Shown piece by piece: positions 7,439 to 28,631 of a stretch of DNA of 33,646 nt (its first letter is position 1; every line of letters begins with the position of its first letter). Position numbers and translations under genes: made by a program. The DNA is taken from NCBI RefSeq assembly GCF_025353065.1, contig NZ_JANXRJ010000291.1, positions 1-33,646 on the forward strand, in the 5' to 3' direction. The DNA comes from Lapillicoccus sp. Lineage in GTDB: Bacteria > Actinomycetota > Actinomycetes > Actinomycetales > Dermatophilaceae. The notes below the pieces were generated by a model, which had not been told where the DNA came from, ran no database searches, and was given only the letters and a program-made list of their open reading frames with translations.

Positions 7439-8554
7439 GTGGCTTCACAGCCAACGGCAATGACGATGGAGGACGGCGGCGAGGACCGCCGACCCCGCGC
7501 CCGGACGCGGGCCCGGGACCACGTCAGCACGTATGCCGTGCTGCTCCAGCAGATGCGCGACCACGGCCTCATGCGCCGGCGGCTGGGCTTCTACTGGGTC
7601 TACGCCGCCATCCTGTTCGGTTCGCTGGGGCTGCTCGGAGTGGCGTTCGCGCTGCTCGGCGACTCGTGGCTGCAGCTGCTGGTGGCGACCGGTCTGGCGG
7701 TCATCTTCGCGCAGTTCGGCTTCCTCGGGCACGACGCGGCGCACCGGCAGATCTTCGCCTCCTCGCGCTGGAACGTCTGGAGCGCCCGCATCATCTCGAC
7801 GCTCTTCATCGGCCTCAGCCACGGCTGGTGGGTGCACAAGCACAACAAGCACCACAACAGCCCCAACCAGCTGGACACCGACCCCGACATCGCCCCGGGC
7901 GTGCTCGCCTTCACGCCTGAGCTGGCGACCGCCCGCGCAGCCATCCCCGGTTTCGCCGGCTGGTTCACCCGGCACCAGGGCTGGTTCTTCTTCCCCCTGC
8001 TGATGCTCGAGGGCCTCGCCCTCCACGTCGCCGGCATCCGCACCCTGATCGAGCGCCGTGACCTCCCCCACCGCCTCCTCGAGGCGGTCCTGCTGACGGT
8101 CCGCCTGGTCGGCTACGTCGCAGTCCTCTTCGTCTTCCTGCCGCCGTCCAAGGCGGTCGCCTTCCTCGGCCTCCAGCTGGCGGTCTTCGGCGTGCTCCTC
8201 GGCGGCTCGTTCGCGCCGAACCACAAGGGGATGCCGATCGTGCCGCGCGGGATGCGGCTCGACTTCGTGCAGCGCCAGGTGGTGATGTCCCGCAACATCC
8301 GGGGGAGCTGGTTCGTCGACTCGGCGATGGGCGGGCTGAACTACCAGATCGAGCACCACCTGTTCCCGAGCATGGCGCGGCCGAACCTGAAGCGCGCCAA
8401 GCCGCTCGTCGAGGCCTTCTGCCGGGAGCACGGCATCACCTACACCGAGGTCAGCCTGCCCGCGTCCTACGGCATCGTCGTGCGCTACCTCAACACCGTC
8501 GGCCTGTCCGAGCGCGATCCCTTCGCCTGCCCGCTGATGGCCGACCTGCGCTGA
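7439..8554 (+). CDS. Membrane fatty-acid desaturase (acyl-CoA/acyl-lipid type)
   Basis: A di-iron membrane desaturase of 371 residues. The three histidine boxes are present: HDAAH (about residue 98), HKHNKHH (about 131) and QIEHHLF (about 304). Two pairs of transmembrane helices separate them (for example YWVYAAILFGSLGLLGVAFAL and LLTVRLVGYVAVLFVFL). The QxxHH form of the third box is typical of front-end and related acyl-lipid desaturases as well as mycobacterial DesA3-like enzymes, so regiospecificity cannot be assigned. The GTG start at 7439 is supported by GAAGAAGG at 7424-7431; the longer reading from 7373 has a basic, unconvincing N-terminus. Its stop codon lies inside the first unit of the minisatellite at 8551. 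Confidence 0.9.
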   Translation: MASQPTAMTMEDGGEDRRPRARTRARDHVSTYAVLLQQMRDHGLMRRRLGFYWVYAAILFGSLGLLGVAFALLGDSWLQLLVATGLAVIFAQFGFLGHDAAHRQIFASSRWNVWSARIISTLFIGLSHGWWVHKHNKHHNSPNQLDTDPDIAPGVLAFTPELATARAAIPGFAGWFTRHQGWFFFPLLMLEGLALHVAGIRTLIERRDLPHRLLEAVLLTVRLVGYVAVLFVFLPPSKAVAFLGLQLAVFGVLLGGSFAPNHKGMPIVPRGMRLDFVQRQVVMSRNIRGSWFVDSAMGGLNYQIEHHLFPSMARPNLKRAKPLVEAFCREHGITYTEVSLPASYGIVVRYLNTVGLSERDPFACPLMADLR

Positions 8555-8678
8555 GTTTCCGGCGGCGCTGAGTTTCCGGCGGCGCTGAGTTTCCGGCGGC
8601 GCTGAGGTCCGGCGGCGCTGAGGTCCGGCGGCGCTGAGGTCTGGCGGTGCTGAGGTCTGGCGGTGCTGAGGTCCGGCT
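8551..8678. repeat. Minisatellite of 16-17 bp units overlapping the desaturase stop
   Basis: Three copies of CTGAGTTTCCGGCGGCG (17 bp, 8551-8601), two of CTGAGGTCCGGCGGCG (8602-8633), two of CTGAGGTCTGGCGGTG (8634-8665) and a partial unit. The first unit contains the TGA of the desaturase, and every unit contains a TGA. Copies are identical in adjacent pairs or triples, which points to recent slippage or unequal exchange. Confidence 0.9.
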
Positions 8679-8699
8679 CGGCTGTCGTCGCCGGACGGC

Positions 8700-8951
8700 T
8701 CTGCCAAAGGTCACCTTTCGCGTCAGGGGTCGGGACGGTCGCGCCTCTTGGCGCGAGTGGTCACCTTCGGTCGGATTGAGGGGGTCGGAACGACCTGACG
8801 TGACCTCTCGATCCCTCGCGGACAGGGATGCTCGCGACAGGGCACCTTTGGCGCCGGGTATGCCGCGCGCCCCAGGCATGCCGCGCCCGCCCCGAGTTCG
8901 TGGTACCGCCCAGGTATGCCGCGCGCCCCAGGTGAGAGCCGCCATCCCGGC
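8700..8951. repeat. Gene-free region rich in small dyads and GGTATGCC repeats
   Basis: No convincing gene lies between the minisatellite and nagB. The region holds the dyad AAAGGT-C-ACCTTT (8706-8718), the stem CGCGCC-tctt-GGCGCG (8740-8755), one copy of TGACCTCTCGATC (8801-8813), and two identical 20-mers GGTATGCCGCGCGCCCCAGG at 8857-8876 and 8913-8932 with a degenerate GGCATGCCGCGC copy between them. Any terminator for the convergent desaturase and nagB genes should lie here. Confidence 0.7.
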
Positions 8952-9737
8952 TCAGAAGGCCTGCCAGTCCGGCTTCGCCTCGTAGGTCTCCGTGTAGTAG
9001 CCCGCCAGCTGCAGCCGGGAGGCCGCACTCTGGTCGACGACGACCGTCGCGTGCGGGTGCATCTGCAGGATCGTCGCCGGCCACATCGCCGAGATCGACC
9101 CCTCCACGAGGTGGTGGACCGCCTCGGCCTTGTGTCGACCGGTGGCGACCAGCACGATGTGCCGGGCCTCCATGATGGTCCCGATGCCCTGCGTCAGGCA
9201 GTGCCGCGGGACCGCCTCGACATCGCCCCCGAAGAAACGCGCGTTGTCACGCCGGGTCTGGCTGGTCAGGGTCTTGATCCGGGTGCGGGAGGCCAGTGAC
9301 GAGCCGGGCTCGTTGAAGGCGATGTGCCCGTCGGTCCCGACCCCGAGGATCTGCAGGTCAACCCCTCCCGCGGCGCGGATCGCCTCCTCGTATGCCGCGC
9401 ACGCCCCGCGCAGGTCGCTCGCCGCGCCGTCCGGGCCATGGACCCGACCGCTGTCGATGTCGACGCGGGCGACGAGCTCGCGCTCGATGACGGTGCGATA
9501 GCGCTCGGCGTGGTCGGCCGCCAGCCCGACGTACTCGTCGAGCATGAAGGCGCTGGCCTGCGCCAGGCTCAAGGTGCCGGCATCGACCCGCCGACCGAGG
9601 TCGGCATAGATCGCCAGCGGGCTCGAGCCGGTTGCGACGCCGAGGACGGCAGCGGGCTTCGCGGCATACAACCGCTCGATCGCCTCGGCCGCGATCGTGC
9701 CGGTCGCCTCGGCGCTGTCGGTGATGATGACCTCCAC
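8952..9737 (-). CDS. nagB: Glucosamine-6-phosphate deaminase
   Basis: Converts glucosamine 6-phosphate to fructose 6-phosphate and ammonia, the last step of amino-sugar catabolism. From the GTG at 9737 the protein has 261 residues, the usual length. Catalytic positions are intact: D67 (FMLDEYVGL), D136 and H138 (LGVGTDGHIAFNEP) and E143, each exactly five less than E. coli D72, D141, H143 and E148. The phosphate-binding loop is GVATGSSP. The in-frame extension to 9812 adds residues outside the family. No nagA or transporter gene is adjacent, so it stands alone. Upstream there is an inverted-repeat pair (9774-9832). Confidence 0.94.
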   Translation of the reverse strand: MEVIITDSAEATGTIAAEAIERLYAAKPAAVLGVATGSSPLAIYADLGRRVDAGTLSLAQASAFMLDEYVGLAADHAERYRTVIERELVARVDIDSGRVHGPDGAASDLRGACAAYEEAIRAAGGVDLQILGVGTDGHIAFNEPGSSLASRTRIKTLTSQTRRDNARFFGGDVEAVPRHCLTQGIGTIMEARHIVLVATGRHKAEAVHHLVEGSISAMWPATILQMHPHATVVVDQSAASRLQLAGYYTETYEAKPDWQAF

Positions 9738-11849: not shown

Positions 11850-12233
11850 TCACAGGACGGAAGCGATGTCGGTCTGGTGGAAATCGTCGCCCTTGAAGAG
11901 CAGAGGCTCCCCGCGCACCTGCGCCAAGGCATACGCGAAGCTATCGCCGTATTTCAGCGCCGCCGGGTGACGTCCCTTGCCGAAACGCCGCCACGCGGCG
12001 GCGGCCGCGATCGCCTGCGCGTGATCGACGGGGACGATCTCGGCATGCAGGCCGTCGAGGAGCAGAGACAGGTCACGGGTGGCGTCGGGTCCTTGGCGCG
12101 ACTCGACCACCATGGTGGTCTCGACGAGGGATGCAGCGGACACGGCGACGGATCCGGTCATGGCGCTGAGGAACCGGTTGGCATCGTCCTCTCCGAGGAC
12201 GACGGCGACGAGGGCTGACGAGTCGACGATCAT
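11850..12233 (-). CDS. VapC-family PIN-domain ribonuclease toxin
   Basis: A 127-residue PIN toxin with all four acidic positions: D4 (MIVDSSALVAVVLGE), E38 (SLVETTMV), D97 (YGDSFAYALA) and D116 (LFKGDDFHQTDI). The sequence type (AAALKYGDSFAYALA, LLFKGDDF) is that of VapC proteins that cut specific tRNAs or rRNA. The ATG at 12233 follows the antitoxin stop by 3 nt, so the two are co-translated. The stop lies 16 nt from that of the convergent hydrolase gene, with no clear terminator between. Confidence 0.93.
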   Translation of the reverse strand: MIVDSSALVAVVLGEDDANRFLSAMTGSVAVSAASLVETTMVVESRQGPDATRDLSLLLDGLHAEIVPVDHAQAIAAAAAWRRFGKGRHPAALKYGDSFAYALAQVRGEPLLFKGDDFHQTDIASVL

Positions 12234-12236
12234 GCG

Positions 12237-12488
12237 TCAGCCCGGCAGACCGTCCGCGTCGTAACCCAGGATCTCGTCGTCGGTCCTCCCGTCGAGAGTG
12301 GCGCGAGCGCGGCCCCGGAGAATGATGGCGTGGAGCGCATCGGGGTCGGCACGCAGCGTCTGTGCCCGAACGCGCACCAGTCGCTCCTCGATCGCTATCC
12401 GGGTGGCTGTGGTGATGGGTTCTCCGGTGAGGTCGGCCAGCTCGCGCGCCGCTCGGTCGGTCGCCGCGTCCTTGATGTTCAGGGCCAT
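12237..12488 (-). CDS. VapB-family antitoxin
   Basis: An 83-residue antitoxin of the Rv0623/PSK type. The N-terminal MALNIKDAATDRAARELADLTGEPITTATRIAIEERL is the DNA-binding segment common to this family, which precedes a toxin-binding tail (RTDDEILGYDADGLPG). It is the first gene of the pair. The palindrome at 12491-12510 overlaps the region where its promoter must lie, consistent with autorepression by the VapBC complex. Confidence 0.92.
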   Translation of the reverse strand: MALNIKDAATDRAARELADLTGEPITTATRIAIEERLVRVRAQTLRADPDALHAIILRGRARATLDGRTDDEILGYDADGLPG

Positions 12489-23251: not shown

Positions 23252-23371
23252 GTGGCGCGGTTTCTCAGGGTGGGCTCAGCGGGTCTGTGCCACTCTGAGG
23301 GACAGCGGTTCTGGCCCGCATCGATCACGGGGAAGGCGCTGGGCCGACCGCACGATGACAGAAGGTGGACG

Positions 23372-26008
23372 TTGACGTCACGGCTGGGCTCCTTGGGGAG
23401 CCCGCGGGGCAGGGCCGCGGCTGGAGGCCTGGGGGGAACGCACCGGGCCGCCCGGCTCAGCCGTGCCGTTGCCCGCGGTCTGCGTGGCGCTCCGGCGACC
23501 CTGGTCATCGTGACGGTCCTGGTGCTCGGAGCCACCGGTGCCGTGTCGGCCGGACTCCGGGCCCATGGCCTCGTGCGGCTGGACATCACCACGCTCCACC
23601 CGCTGTCGGTCCTGGCCAATCTCGTCGTCGCGCAGAACCCGATCGCGTACGTCAGCTCGATCGGCGCGCTGCTGACGTGCGGGCTGATCGCGGAGCGCCT
23701 GCTCGGCTCCCTGCGGTATGCCTTGGTGCTGGTGTCGATCCAGGTCGTGGCCCTGCTCGTGGCGACCCTGCATGCCGCCCTCATCGCCAGCGTGTTTCCC
23801 CGGTGGAGCCACGCCCTGACCGAGACGCCCTTCGGGGGGCCGGGTTCTGCCGCCCTGGGCGCGCTCCTGGTCTCGAGCGCCGGGATGTCGACGCTGTGGC
23901 GTCGCCGGGTCCGGGCCGCAGCGGTCGCCTTCGTCGTCACAGCGGTGCTCTATGACGGCGACGCCGGCGGGGTGGTGACGTTCTGGGCGGCCTTGATCGG
24001 TCTGGCTGCCGGCGCGGTGATGCTTCCGGAGCCGGCCGAGAGGTCCCCGGTGCCCAAGGTCGGCGAGGCGCGGATGCTGGTCGCGATCGTCGTCGCGTGC
24101 TCCGCGCTGGGCCCGGTGGTCGCGGCCCTGTCGGCGGCCGCAGGACCGTTGACGTCCCTCGGGTCCCTCCTCGACCTCGCGTCACCGTCCGCCTCCGAGG
24201 TGGGCCAGGTGTGTCTGCATGCGAGTGCGGCGGCGTGCACGTTCGCTCACGTCGAGCAGCACCAGGGCCTCGGTGGCGTGCTCAAGGCCTGCGTCCCCAG
24301 CTTCGTGCTGCTGGCGATCGCGACCGGCCTGGCGCGCGGCCGACGGGCGGCGTGGTTGGCGAGCCTGGTGGCGACCGGGGTCATGGCCGCAGCCTCGGCG
24401 GCGGTGTTCGTCATCCTTCCGTTGCTGGCCAGCCGCGGTCGCGTCGGGGGCCTCGGAGTGCCGCCGGGGGTGGGGATGCCCGAGCGGGTCGGGCAGCTGC
24501 TGACCCAGCACGCCCTGCCGACCCTGGCGCCGTTGTTCGTGCTCGGCCTGCTCGTCGTCAGCCGGCGACTCTTCGTCATCCGGGCGCCGGCGGTTCAGTA
24601 CCAGCGACTGGCGAAGCGGTGTGCGCTGATCCTGGTCGGCGCCTCCGCGGCATACGTGGGGATCGGTCTGCTCTTCGGCGACGACTGGAGCCCGAGCGCG
24701 AGCGCAGCGGCGCTGGCCCGTGACCTGGTGATGCGGCTGCTCCCGCTCGATCTGTTCGGCGCCGACCAGCCGACCCTCCTCCCGGTCGGCACGGATGCGG
24801 TCTTCCTCTTCTACTGGATCGGTCCGCTGACCTGGGCAGCGGTGTTGCTGCTGGTCGCTCACGCGCTGCGCGTGGACGTCGACCCGGGCCGCGCGGAGCA
24901 CGAGCGGCTCCGCGCCCTGCTCACCGCGTCCGGTGGCGGTCCGCTGTCCTGGATGGCCACCTGGGCCGGCATCCATCACTGGTTCAGCAGCGCCGGCACG
25001 GCAGCCGTCGGCTACCGGCTCGAACGTGGTGTCGCGCTCACGGTCGGTGACCCGATCGGTGGCGCGGCCACGCACCATGAGGTGCTGCGCGAGTTCGCGG
25101 CACACTGCGACCGGATGGGCTGGACGCCCTGCTTCTACTCCGCCGGCGCCGAGTTCGCCGCGTTGGCACGCGAGGACGGCTGGAAGACGCTCCAGGTCGC
25201 CGAGGAGACTCGGCTGCCCCTGGGCGCAATCGCGTTCTCCGGCAGGCAGTTCCAGGACATCCGCACCGCGATGAACCATGCTGGGCGCGAGGGCCTGACC
25301 ATCGAGTGGACCCATCTGGCGAGCACTCCGGAACGACTCGCTGCCCAGGTGCGCTGGATCTGCCACGACTGGCTCACCGCGCAGGCCCTGCCCGAGCTCG
25401 GCTTCACCCTCGGCGGCCTCGCGCAGATGCTCGACCCCGCGGTGCGCTGCGAGCTCGTCGTCGACGCCGAGGGGACCGTCCACGCCGTCGCGTCGTGGCT
25501 CCCCATCCACCAGGACGGGGAGGTCGTCGGGTGGACCCTCGACGTGATGCGCCGCCGGAGCACCGGGTTCCGGGGCTCCATCGAGCTGCTCATCGGTCAG
25601 GCCGTCCTCGACTTCCAGTGCGAGGGGTATGCCGTGATGAGCCTGTCCGGTGCCCCGCTCGCCCGCGTCGAGCGCCCCGATGCCGCGAGCGCCGCCCAGG
25701 ACGGCTTCGCGCCGCCCCTCGACCGGCTGCTCGACATCATCGGACGCACCCTCGAGCCGGTCTACGGGTTCCAGTCCCTGCTGCGTTTCAAGGCGAAGTT
25801 CCAGCCCGAGTTCCGACCCATGTACATCGTCTATCCCGACCCCACCAACCTGCCCAACATCGGCCAGGCCGTGGCTCGCGCCTACCTGCCCGATGCCGGC
25901 CGAGGGTCATGGTGGCGGCTCGCCTCCACCATCGCCACGGCACGACGGCGCTCGCGCGCGTCAGCACCCGCCGCACCCGTCCCGGACCGCCCGAGCCGCG
26001 TCGCGTGA
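23372..26008 (+). CDS. MprF-like aminoacyl-lipid synthase (lysyl/alanyl transferase and flippase)
   Basis: An 878-residue membrane protein. The N-terminal two thirds contain many transmembrane helices, beginning with a rhomboid-like block (LVIVTVLVLGATGAVSAGL, LSVLANLVVAQNPIAYVSSIGALLTCGLIAERLLG). The C-terminal DUF2156 domain has tandem GNAT folds (YRLERGVALTVGDPIGG, FYSAGAEFAALAREDGWKTL, EETRLPL, FRPMYIVYPDPTNLPNIGQA). Such enzymes transfer an amino acid from aminoacyl-tRNA to phosphatidylglycerol or diacylglycerol, altering surface charge. Amino acid and lipid are not predictable. The start is TTG at 23372, supported by GAAGGTGG just upstream; the long in-frame reading from 22814 overlaps the divergent gene. 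Its TGA overlaps the next start (GTGA). Confidence 0.87.
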   Translation: MTSRLGSLGSPRGRAAAGGLGGTHRAARLSRAVARGLRGAPATLVIVTVLVLGATGAVSAGLRAHGLVRLDITTLHPLSVLANLVVAQNPIAYVSSIGALLTCGLIAERLLGSLRYALVLVSIQVVALLVATLHAALIASVFPRWSHALTETPFGGPGSAALGALLVSSAGMSTLWRRRVRAAAVAFVVTAVLYDGDAGGVVTFWAALIGLAAGAVMLPEPAERSPVPKVGEARMLVAIVVACSALGPVVAALSAAAGPLTSLGSLLDLASPSASEVGQVCLHASAAACTFAHVEQHQGLGGVLKACVPSFVLLAIATGLARGRRAAWLASLVATGVMAAASAAVFVILPLLASRGRVGGLGVPPGVGMPERVGQLLTQHALPTLAPLFVLGLLVVSRRLFVIRAPAVQYQRLAKRCALILVGASAAYVGIGLLFGDDWSPSASAAALARDLVMRLLPLDLFGADQPTLLPVGTDAVFLFYWIGPLTWAAVLLLVAHALRVDVDPGRAEHERLRALLTASGGGPLSWMATWAGIHHWFSSAGTAAVGYRLERGVALTVGDPIGGAATHHEVLREFAAHCDRMGWTPCFYSAGAEFAALAREDGWKTLQVAEETRLPLGAIAFSGRQFQDIRTAMNHAGREGLTIEWTHLASTPERLAAQVRWICHDWLTAQALPELGFTLGGLAQMLDPAVRCELVVDAEGTVHAVASWLPIHQDGEVVGWTLDVMRRRSTGFRGSIELLIGQAVLDFQCEGYAVMSLSGAPLARVERPDAASAAQDGFAPPLDRLLDIIGRTLEPVYGFQSLLRFKAKFQPEFRPMYIVYPDPTNLPNIGQAVARAYLPDAGRGSWWRLASTIATARRRSRASAPAAPVPDRPSRVA

Positions 26009-27360
26009 GCGGCCTGGTCGAGGGGTTCCTCGCCGTTCACATCCAGGACCCCCGAGTCCTCGCGATCGCCTACGCCTGCGGCGCGTCTGCGTCCCTGTTC
26101 GTGGCCCTCCGCCGCCGCCCGCACCGGCTGCGCCAGGTCGTGATCGCCTCGGCGGCCGGGGCGGCGGTGGGAGTCGCCGCGCTCTGGCTCGTCGAGGGCC
26201 CGCTCAACCTCACCGGTGTGCCCCTGCTCTGGCCGGCCCGCTACTGGGTCCTGGCCTGCTTCGCTGCACTGGCCGTCGCCGCCGCAGCGTTGCGGCGTTC
26301 CCGCTGGTGGCACCGTGCCGTCACCCTGGCTGCGGCGGCGGTCCTCGTCGCGACGACCGGCCTCGGCATCAACGCGGTCTATGGCGTCAACCAGACCATG
26401 GCGGCCGCCCTGGGCCTCTCGGCCGGGACCCCGATCGCCCTGCCACCCACCGCAGACCCGTCCGCCCTGCTGCCCGTCGTACCGCGGAACCCGCTCGGGC
26501 ACAGGCGAATACGGCCCGATTGGCCTCTACCGCTAGCCGTCACCTGGCGCCCTCCGAGCGACCTGCCCGCCGCCGGCCGGGTCGGCACAGTGGTGATTCC
26601 CGGGACCGTGTCGGGTTTCACCGCTCGTCCTGCCGGCATCTACCTGCCACCGGCGGCGCTCGTGGCCCATCCACCGCCGCTACCCGTGGTCGTGTTCATG
26701 TTCGGGCAACCCGGCAGCCCCGACACCTTCCTGGCCCGCGAGAGCCTCGACGCACTCGCCCGCCAGCATCATGGTCTCGCGCCGATCGTCGTCGTGGCGG
26801 ACCAGCTCGGGAGTCCCGGCCAGGACACCCTGTGCCTCAACACGCCCACCTACGGCAACGTCGAGACCTACATCGACACCGACGTCGTGTCCTGGGTCAG
26901 GCACCACCTCAACGTCAGCCCGCTGCGCTCGGCGTGGACCGTCGCCGGCTTCTCCAACGGCGCCCAGTGCGCCGTCTCCTTCGCCGCCAAGCACCCCGAG
27001 ACCTGGGGCAACCTCGTGAGCATCTCCGGTGAGGCCTTCCCCGGTTTCGAGCACCAGTCACAGACTCTCGCGGACATCTTCCACGGCAACGAGGCGGCAT
27101 ACGACGCCCAGAAGCCGGTGACCCTGCTGGGCCGCCGCGTCCGCCTCGTCGGCAACGCCTTCTTCTCCTACGGGAGCAACGACGACTACTTCGCCCCCGG
27201 AGTGGTGCGGGTCATCGCGGCCGCGCGTGCGGCCGGTCTGCACGTCACCGTCGACGTCATCCCCCAGGGCGGCCACGTCGAACCCGCCCTGAGCCTGGGC
27301 AACGCGGCCGCGATGGCCTGGCTCTACCCACGGCTCGGACTCGCAGCGCCACGCGGATGA
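26005..27360 (+). CDS. Membrane-anchored alpha/beta esterase
   Basis: The protein has 451 residues from the GTG at 26005, which overlaps the upstream stop. About four N-terminal helices (VLAIAYACGASASLFVAL, VVIASAAGAAVGVAALWLV, YWVLACFAALAVAAAAL, AVTLAAAAVLVATTGLGINAV) are followed by a secreted esterase domain of the antigen-85/putative-esterase type. Nucleophile Ser is about 317 in VAGFSNGAQCAVSFA, an acidic residue lies in YGSNDDYF, and His in PQGGHVEPA. The domain should face outside. Known MprF-type operons in Corynebacterium and Enterococcus include hydrolases that remove amino acids from lipids (AhyD), so this enzyme may reverse or tune the neighbour's reaction; that is inference. Confidence 0.85.
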   Translation: MSGLVEGFLAVHIQDPRVLAIAYACGASASLFVALRRRPHRLRQVVIASAAGAAVGVAALWLVEGPLNLTGVPLLWPARYWVLACFAALAVAAAALRRSRWWHRAVTLAAAAVLVATTGLGINAVYGVNQTMAAALGLSAGTPIALPPTADPSALLPVVPRNPLGHRRIRPDWPLPLAVTWRPPSDLPAAGRVGTVVIPGTVSGFTARPAGIYLPPAALVAHPPPLPVVVFMFGQPGSPDTFLARESLDALARQHHGLAPIVVVADQLGSPGQDTLCLNTPTYGNVETYIDTDVVSWVRHHLNVSPLRSAWTVAGFSNGAQCAVSFAAKHPETWGNLVSISGEAFPGFEHQSQTLADIFHGNEAAYDAQKPVTLLGRRVRLVGNAFFSYGSNDDYFAPGVVRVIAAARAAGLHVTVDVIPQGGHVEPALSLGNAAAMAWLYPRLGLAAPRG

Positions 27361-28262
27361 CCCGACCTCGGGTCACCCGACGACGACGCACGTCCGGTGC
27401 CGGCCGTCGGCGCGTCGCCCTCGGGTGCGCGCTCGTGCTGGCGCTGTATGCCGCCGGGTGCGAGCGAGTCGGCCAGCAGTCGGTTGACGCCGACCCTCCA
27501 CCGACTGCTGCGCCGGTCGCAGCGCCGGTCCTCCTGCCTCCGCCGGGCGGCCGGTTCAGCTACCAGATCGGCGGTGCCTACCCGCCACCCGCCGGCGTCA
27601 CGATCGTCGATCGCGACCACACCACCGCCCCGGACCCGAGGGTCTTCTCGATCTGCTATCTCAACGCCTTCCAGGCCCAACCGGACGCCGTGACCTGGTG
27701 GACCACCCACCACCCCGATCTGCTGTTGCGCGACGCGGGCGGCAGTCTGGTCATCGACCAGCAGTGGCACGAGCCGCTGTTCGACATCAGGACCGCCACC
27801 CGGCAGGACGAGCTGATGACCGTCGTCGGGAGCTGGGTCGACGACTGCGCCGCCCGCGGCTACCGCGCCGTGGAGGCCGACAACCTCGACTCCTACACCC
27901 GCTCCGACGGGCTCCTCTCCGCGAACGACGCCCTGCTGCTCGGCCGGCGGCTCGCCGAGCGGGCCCACCGCGCCCGGCTCTCTCTGGGTCAGAAGAACGC
28001 CGCAGAGCTCTCCGCGGCGGCCCGCGGGCTCGGCTTCGACTTCGACTTCGCGGTCGCCGAGGAGTGTCAGGCCTACTCCGAGTGCGAGACCTACACCGCC
28101 GCCTACGGTGCCCACCTCATCGAGATCGAGTACACCGACGGACCGTCGTCCGCCTTCACGACGGCGTGCGGCCTCCGCGGCAAGGACGTCTCCGTGGTGC
28201 TCCGCGACCGCGACGTCACCCCGCTCGGCGACCCCAGGTATGTCGAACGCTATTGTCCCTGA
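27357..28262 (+). CDS. GH114-type (endo-alpha-1,4-polygalactosaminidase-like) lipoprotein
   Basis: A 301-residue lipoprotein. A basic start and hydrophobic stretch (VALGCALVLALYAAGC) end at the lipidated Cys35. The mature part matches the GH114 barrel: FSYQIGGAYPPPAGVTIVDRD, FSICYLNAFQ, YRAVEADNLDSY with the conserved acidic residues, LSLGQKNAAEL, FAVAEECQAYSECETYTAAYG and HLIEIEYTD. GH114 enzymes cleave galactosamine-rich polysaccharides such as Pel-like polymers. The ATG at 27357 overlaps the esterase stop (ATGA), so the three genes form one tightly coupled operon with a cell-envelope theme. The substrate in this organism is unknown. Confidence 0.88.
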   Translation: MTRPRVTRRRRTSGAGRRRVALGCALVLALYAAGCERVGQQSVDADPPPTAAPVAAPVLLPPPGGRFSYQIGGAYPPPAGVTIVDRDHTTAPDPRVFSICYLNAFQAQPDAVTWWTTHHPDLLLRDAGGSLVIDQQWHEPLFDIRTATRQDELMTVVGSWVDDCAARGYRAVEADNLDSYTRSDGLLSANDALLLGRRLAERAHRARLSLGQKNAAELSAAARGLGFDFDFAVAEECQAYSECETYTAAYGAHLIEIEYTDGPSSAFTTACGLRGKDVSVVLRDRDVTPLGDPRYVERYCP

Positions 28263-28295: not shown

Positions 28296-28631
28296 TCAGG
28301 TGGTCGCCGTGGCCGAGGGGGTCTGGTCGACCGCGATGGTGAAGTTCAGCGTGGCCCCGGACACCGACGTCACGGTGACGGTGAGCCCGAACGTGTTGCC
28401 GGCGGCCGAGACGAGCGTGCACCTCTCGGTCTTCCCGACCGTTGCGTCGAGCGGCCCAGGGCACACGACGCTGCTCGGTGACTGCCCGACCGTCTTCGCC
28501 AGCTGGGCCGAGATCCGACTCTCGAGCTCCGCCTTGGAGAGACTCGGCGTCCCCGTCGACGCCGAGAACGAGCACGCTCCCAACAGCCCGGTCAGGACCA
28601 CCGCACACGCCGCAGCTTTTGCTGTCATCAT
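28296..28631 (-). CDS. DUF4333 lipoprotein
   Basis: A lipoprotein of about 111 residues. The signal AAACAVVLTGLLGAC has a clear L-G-A-C lipobox. The mature part has SKAELESRISAQLAKTVGQSPSSVVCPGPLDATVGKTERC, then a beta-rich tail, matching DUF4333 with its paired Cys residues. The family is common in actinobacteria and has no known function. A GGGGG ribosome site precedes a double ATG (28631 and 28628). It is convergent with the GH114 gene, 33 nt apart, with only a weak CGGTT/AACCG stem between them. Confidence 0.85.
   Translation of the reverse strand: MMTAKAAACAVVLTGLLGACSFSASTGTPSLSKAELESRISAQLAKTVGQSPSSVVCPGPLDATVGKTERCTLVSAAGNTFGLTVTVTSVSGATLNFTIAVDQTPSATATT

Follow-up and report, generated by a model that had tools for sequence, protein, structure and literature searches.

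Smith et al. reportedly found in 2015 that the formation of alanyl-phosphatidylglycerol (Ala-PG) in Corynebacterium glutamicum requires a putative esterase whose gene adjoins that of the synthase. A pair of genes of this kind, followed by a gene for a glycosidase of family GH114, lies on the forward strand of the DNA analyzed here, a stretch of 33,646 nucleotides from Lapillicoccus sp. (hereafter the window; bases 1-33646 of contig C29 in a draft genome of 5.1 Mb and 343 contigs, 91.8% complete). The MprF homologs of actinobacteria are distinct and yield alanyl-diacylglycerol (Ala-DAG) and lysyl-diacylglycerol (Lys-DAG), and a transferase step further down the pathway, like that of C. glutamicum, may charge phosphatidylglycerol (PG) (available part of PMC10580965). 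Our bioinformatics analyses place the window genes in this setting: they form a known kind of actinobacterial lipid-aminoacylation pair, of which the unusual elements are a rhomboid-like membrane region in the synthase and the GH114 gene appended in this lineage. The AlaDAGS-esterase system of C. glutamicum resembles the window pair in having an actinobacterial LPG_synthase_C-type enzyme with an adjacent esterase, and in that a lipid other than PG may be charged. LysX resembles the window pair in the same respects (available part of PMC10580965). The window pair differs from both in that its genes overlap, the esterase lies downstream, the synthase begins with a rhomboid-like N terminus, and a lysyl-tRNA synthetase domain is absent; the likeness to the AlaDAGS-esterase of C. 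glutamicum is drawn from the description of that system. AhyD of Enterococcus is an extracytoplasmic hydrolase. In Agrobacterium, a lysyl-PG (Lys-PG) synthase and an extracytoplasmic hydrolase are encoded together in the lpiA-acvB operon (excerpts of PMC13197417). From these two systems the window locus differs in that its synthase lacks the MprF flippase domain and its esterase is a PF00756 protein with four predicted transmembrane (TM) helices. The features of the locus are the following.

23360..23365, + strand: AGAAGG, resembling a ribosome-binding site, 6 nt 5' of the TTG start of the synthase (from the sequence)
23372..26008, + strand: predicted aminoacyl-lipid synthase, 878 aa, TTG start at 23372, with a rhomboid-like membrane region at the N terminus, more TM helices and LPG_synthase_C
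23489..24025, + strand: rhomboid-like region, about residues 40-218 of the synthase, by homology to relatives reaching PF20401
24911..25834, + strand: LPG_synthase_C (PF09924) domain, synthase residues 514-821 (Pfam)
26005..26008, + strand: GTGA, synthase stop and esterase start, 4-bp overlap (from the sequence)
26005..27360, + strand: predicted esterase, 451 aa, four predicted N-terminal TM helices followed by a PF00756 alpha/beta hydrolase
26953..26955, + strand: esterase Ser317 within GFSNG, the presumed nucleophile
27357..27360, + strand: ATGA, esterase stop and GH114 start, 4-bp overlap (from the sequence)
27357..28262, + strand: GH114 protein, 301 aa, probable lipoprotein (AAGC35, lipobox by eye)
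27879..27881, + strand: GH114 Asp175, equivalent of Ega3 Asp189
28059..28061, + strand: GH114 Glu235, equivalent of Ega3 Glu247

The arrangement of three genes on the + strand with 4-bp overlaps, GTGA at 26005-26008 and ATGA at 27357-27360, is as the initial annotation described it, and each product matches its Pfam family above the cut-off (E-values of 3.1e-72 for PF09924 in the synthase, 7.9e-8 for PF00756 in the esterase, and 6.3e-44 for PF03537 in the GH114 protein). The next likely gene downstream of GH114 is convergent (open reading frame 28296-28631), and the GH114 gene is therefore the last of the unit.

The synthase-esterase pair is a real recurring module. In another genus (g3), the two genes overlap by 4 bp at all four loci, in the window's order with the esterase second; the junctions are ATGA, ATGA, GTGA, and GTGA, and the identity is 39-42%. 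Across the family, 62 genomes have matches to both proteins; these lie at most 4 kb apart in 25 of them and on one strand in 22 of the 25, with about 0.32 genomes expected under uniform placement. Many of the family synthase matches fall in open frames of at least 1,100 codons, as expected of LysX, and one full-length protein (L082), whose esterase lies upstream, includes a lysyl-tRNA synthetase domain. A Pfam scan of the window synthase shows no such C-terminal LysX domain; the L082 and L144 proteins have it. Among 30 further esterase loci, most with flanks of only 1.5 kb, eight have a synthase match next to the esterase and on its strand (7 of 29 from the class sample, plus an Arthrobacter plasmid); on that plasmid (L398), two tRNA-Asn genes lie just downstream of the pair, at 7789-8050. 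In the genus of genome G743, nine genomes have an esterase match and five of these have the pair, the esterase gene coming first in this case. Within the three genomes of the window's own genus, the window-type synthase occurs in this one only, matches in the other two being at most 30% identical.

The C-terminal domain of the synthase matches the solved Lys-PG and Ala-PG synthases (4v36 and 4v34), and Glu612, Asp724, Arg727, and Lys807, which we take to correspond to active-site residues of the known enzymes, are invariant in all nine aligned proteins. The initial annotation had called this protein MprF-like, which holds for the PF09924 aminoacyl-lipid synthase domain but not for the membrane part, in which a Pfam scan found no MprF flippase domain (LPG_synthase_TM, PF03706). 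The score against the family model of the bifunctional flippase/synthase, NF033480, is 155 bits, below the cut-off of 600. PF03706 has three matches in the same genome, all on contigs other than C29, and the MprF of Pseudokineococcus carries it. Where MprF has its flippase, the window synthase has, to judge from alignments, a rhomboid-like region that has diverged and lost the Ser and His of rhomboids. Four relatives of another type (type b) all reach PF20401 (Rhomboid-like protein) above the cut-off, and the window synthase aligns to type-b proteins over the rhomboid-like region (27% and 31% in tblastn); a profile built from the synthase alignment matches GlpG weakly (E 0.007), and the structure model of the region is poor (predicted local distance difference test, pLDDT, 49). 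The Ser of the rhomboid GxSG motif and the His of TM6 are absent at the aligned columns in the window synthase and in all four g3 relatives, so that protease activity of this region appears unlikely. In the type-b proteins (L094-L097), the same positions hold Ser in three of four and His in all four; no esterase match was found within the 13-19 kb around these genes, which combine the rhomboid-like region with LPG_synthase_C. We found no description of this architecture in the open-access literature, which also yielded nothing on rhomboids combined with lysyltransferases, and the available parts of PMC11630815 and PMC8131360 contain nothing about it.

In the esterase, the hydropathy profile gives four TM helices, and the loops at 36-44 and 97-104 are basic; because these loops would be the inner ones, the catalytic domain should face outward. 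Ser317 and His424 are invariant in the six aligned proteins. PF00756, to which the domain belongs, also includes the antigen 85 mycolyltransferases. We think it rather probable that the pair is an actinobacterial lipid-aminoacylation module, that its esterase either transfers or hydrolyses, and that GH114 was appended to the operon in this lineage. The synthase would esterify an amino acid from aminoacyl-tRNA onto PG or diacylglycerol at the inner side of the membrane, its rhomboid-like part probably serving as an anchor and perhaps helping the lipid to cross. The translationally coupled, outward-facing esterase would then work on the outer-leaflet aminoacyl ester, either handing the amino acid on to a second lipid, for instance PG, or hydrolysing the ester. 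GH114 would be an exported endo-galactosaminidase, probably tethered to the membrane; its clade occurs at varied loci, and in this lineage it would have joined the end of the operon and be co-translated. Of this account, the order and overlaps of the genes, the domain assignments, the conservation of the catalytic residues and the recurrence of the pair are observed; the lipid, amino-acid and GH114 substrates, the choice between transfer and hydrolysis, the topology, the lipoprotein status and the absence of a strict functional tie to GH114 are inferred.

The initial annotation read the synthase and the outward-facing esterase as a pair that makes and removes aminoacylated lipids. The coupling and the predicted location stand, but AhyD-type removal now has a rival in transfer to PG. 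That the esterase is a plain hydrolase of the AhyD/AcvB type, stripping amino acids from lipid, is quite conceivable, although we would put its chances somewhat short of even: it has a precedent in the lpiA-acvB operon, and the window esterase has the Ser and His and is predicted to lie on the outside. On the other hand, the membership of the mycolyltransferases in PF00756 speaks for transfer, as does the actinobacterial partner esterase mentioned above, which was reportedly needed for making Ala-PG; the available discussion in PMC10580965 agrees with the latter. Given this actinobacterial synthase-esterase precedent, moving the amino acid onto PG would be at least as likely as removing it. 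A search of the open-access literature for Ala-DAG together with an esterase found nothing.

The third gene product reaches 150 bits against the GH114 model PF03537, for which the cut-off is 27. Its structure model (pLDDT 87.8) has Ega3 of Aspergillus fumigatus (6oj1) as its best fold match (E 6.9e-14, TM-score 0.63 on the query), followed by GH191 enzymes and PelA. In a phmmer alignment, Asp175 and Glu235 stand opposite positions 148 and 206 of the 6oj1 chain, which a single offset of 41 converts to Asp189 and Glu247, the catalytic acids named for Ega3 (excerpts of PMC12054363). All 40 aligned proteins, among them that of the window, have both residues, which bears out the presence of the catalytic acids. 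With Ega3, the window protein thus shares the fold, both catalytic acids, and membrane attachment (for Ega3 according to excerpts of PMC12054363; for the window protein, a probable lipoprotein, by prediction); it differs in being bacterial, in being only about 20% identical in the fold alignment, and in the lack of PelF above the cut-off in its genome (eight matches, none above it, in about 92% of the genome). According to the same excerpts, the Pseudomonas putida GH114 enzyme is an endo-hydrolase and Ega3 is specific for deacetylated galactosamine stretches (PMC12054363). The window protein would, as predicted from homology, be an endo-alpha-1,4-galactosaminidase. At E 0.001, GH114 was matched in 15 of the 149 family genomes and 95 of the 297 order genomes; at E 1e-20, it was matched in 72 of the 296 class genomes. 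Of the two genus siblings, one has two GH114 matches at 31-33% identity and the other none; in a sibling locus (L091, genome G025), two adjoining convergent GH114-like genes, 30-32% identical to the window protein, lie at 8198-9620. At two other loci (L093 and L364), a divergent GH114 gene immediately follows another glycosidase-like gene, which by eye resembles spherulin-4; at L093 a glycosyltransferase that by eye resembles PelF is also close by. These may be Pel-like actinobacterial clusters.

The initial annotation went further and proposed a link between lipid aminoacylation and a galactosamine-rich polymer, that is, one envelope-remodelling system handling both. We compared GH114 loci by tblastn and profile search in overlapping genome samples of the family (149), the order (297), and the class (296), together with the best 80 of at least 579 relatives; flanks ran from 1.5 to about 8 kb, several being ended by contig ends, and the order-sample places in G197, G289, and G383 (three weak GH114 matches) were left out. 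This gave 257 distinct stretches, 249 of them, the window included, with at least 1200 nt upstream. The conservation that the initial annotation asked of the triplet is lacking in this material: the overlapping synthase-esterase-GH114 arrangement was not seen in the other 248. Among the 249, only the window, where the esterase intervenes, and two Pseudokineococcus genomes have a synthase immediately upstream of GH114, against roughly 0.05 chance adjacencies expected in about 250 loci, a figure taken from gene counts rather than from a computed test. The two Pseudokineococcus MprFs are 96% identical, and in one of them (L145) the stop of a canonical MprF lies 4 nt before the GH114 start. A third genome of the genus has MprF and GH114 on one strand 7.3 kb apart, with a related next gene after GH114, and a fourth has no GH114 after MprF. 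In G743, GH114, esterase, and synthase follow one another on one strand, GH114 lying 100-260 nt before the esterase, depending on the start taken for the latter. Together with the two 4-bp overlaps of the window, the Pseudokineococcus adjacency (two of four genomes) and the G743 order speak for a combined system; one independent lineage and a looser case make the link of GH114 to the synthase suggestive, not strong.

Against such a system stand the g3 pairs, of which all four lack a GH114 match in the surrounding 18-19 kb, and the g3 genomes, none of which is among the 15 family genomes with a GH114 match. In the genus of G743, the esterase (E 1e-60) is found in nine of 392 genomes, and GH114 lies within 1.5 kb in G743 alone, where it belongs to another branch (32% identical to the window GH114) and is set off by the gap given above. 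The window genome, moreover, has no PelF above the cut-off, and GH114 stands close behind varied genes. A same-strand upstream neighbor ends within 20 nt of GH114 in 38 of 225 cases (crude gene calls); such close neighbors are not rare, and the second overlap alone therefore says little. Of 117 same-strand upstream genes, 61 end within 150 nt of the GH114 match, and they are varied (by eye gyrase B-like and MazG-like, for example); clustering of the neighbors gave no dominant partner, the largest clusters holding 17 loci spread over positions and strands. We therefore regard a combined lipid/galactosamine-polymer system as possible, yet unlikely. At a further locus (L379), no GH114 lies within the flank, which is shorter than 1.5 kb. 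In Actinomadura (L144, 7564-7911), GH114 shares 4 bp with a gene that by eye looks MazG-like, showing that such overlaps arise with other partners as well. Four loci were not counted as coupled: L144, where LysX ends about 2.6 kb upstream with one gene between; L124, with a synthase 7.3 kb upstream; L223, with a synthase 5 kb downstream; and L254, with a weak esterase-like match 252 nt downstream. Nothing on MprF and GH114 together was found in the open-access literature.

A defence in which charged lipids lessen the binding of foreign cationic galactosamine polymers, such as fungal galactosaminogalactan, while GH114 cuts them would explain the pairing of GH114 with two different kinds of synthase and fits the specificity of Ega3, a GH114 enzyme; we hold it to be improbable, and we know of no substrate data for this GH114 clade. 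The bacterial GH114 enzymes that have been tried were not obtained properly folded (excerpts of PMC12054363), which also counts against it. Still more doubtful is an arrangement with an inactive rhomboid-like domain in place of the MprF flippase, a domain that would itself move the charged lipid or hand it to a coupled outer-leaflet transacylase, the co-translated galactosaminidase providing a second layer against cationic galactosamine polymers.

Several points weigh against the account that we prefer, that of a lipid-aminoacylation module with an appended GH114. The rhomboid assignment of the window synthase is drawn from its relatives: scanned alone, the synthase gives DUF1751 below the cut-off and reaches no rhomboid model, and of two g3 synthases scanned singly, one (L080) falls slightly below the PF01694 cut-off and the other (L078) has no rhomboid match. 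In the esterase, the catalytic acid is not fixed to one residue, Asn392 and Asp393 being candidates. The fungal enzyme FsGH114 was inactive on Pel (excerpts of PMC12054363), which makes the substrate of the window GH114 uncertain. Finally, the Pseudokineococcus and G743 loci may mean that the association of GH114 is more than an accident.

As for the surroundings, the window contains no tRNA gene and no Rfam match, and two small gene pairs resembling PIN-domain toxins and antitoxins (VapBC-like by eye) lie at 11850-12488 and 1820-2516. A dedicated tRNA beside the pair was considered for G743, where a segment at 1240-1500 of L399 looks by eye like a tRNA 3' end; ARAGORN calls none, and the candidate was dropped. 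The segment lies between GH114 and the esterase-synthase pair and is perhaps an integration scar.

Lipid aminoacylation alters membrane charge. C. pseudotuberculosis becomes less tolerant of cationic agents when it loses LysX, and with it Lys-DAG, whereas Ala-DAG, whose role is open, had no effect of this kind (available part of PMC10580965). The window pair offers a defined case for asking how charged lipids cross the membrane without an MprF flippase and whether the esterase transfers the amino acid or removes it. If true, the GH114 link would connect lipid charge with cationic polysaccharides.

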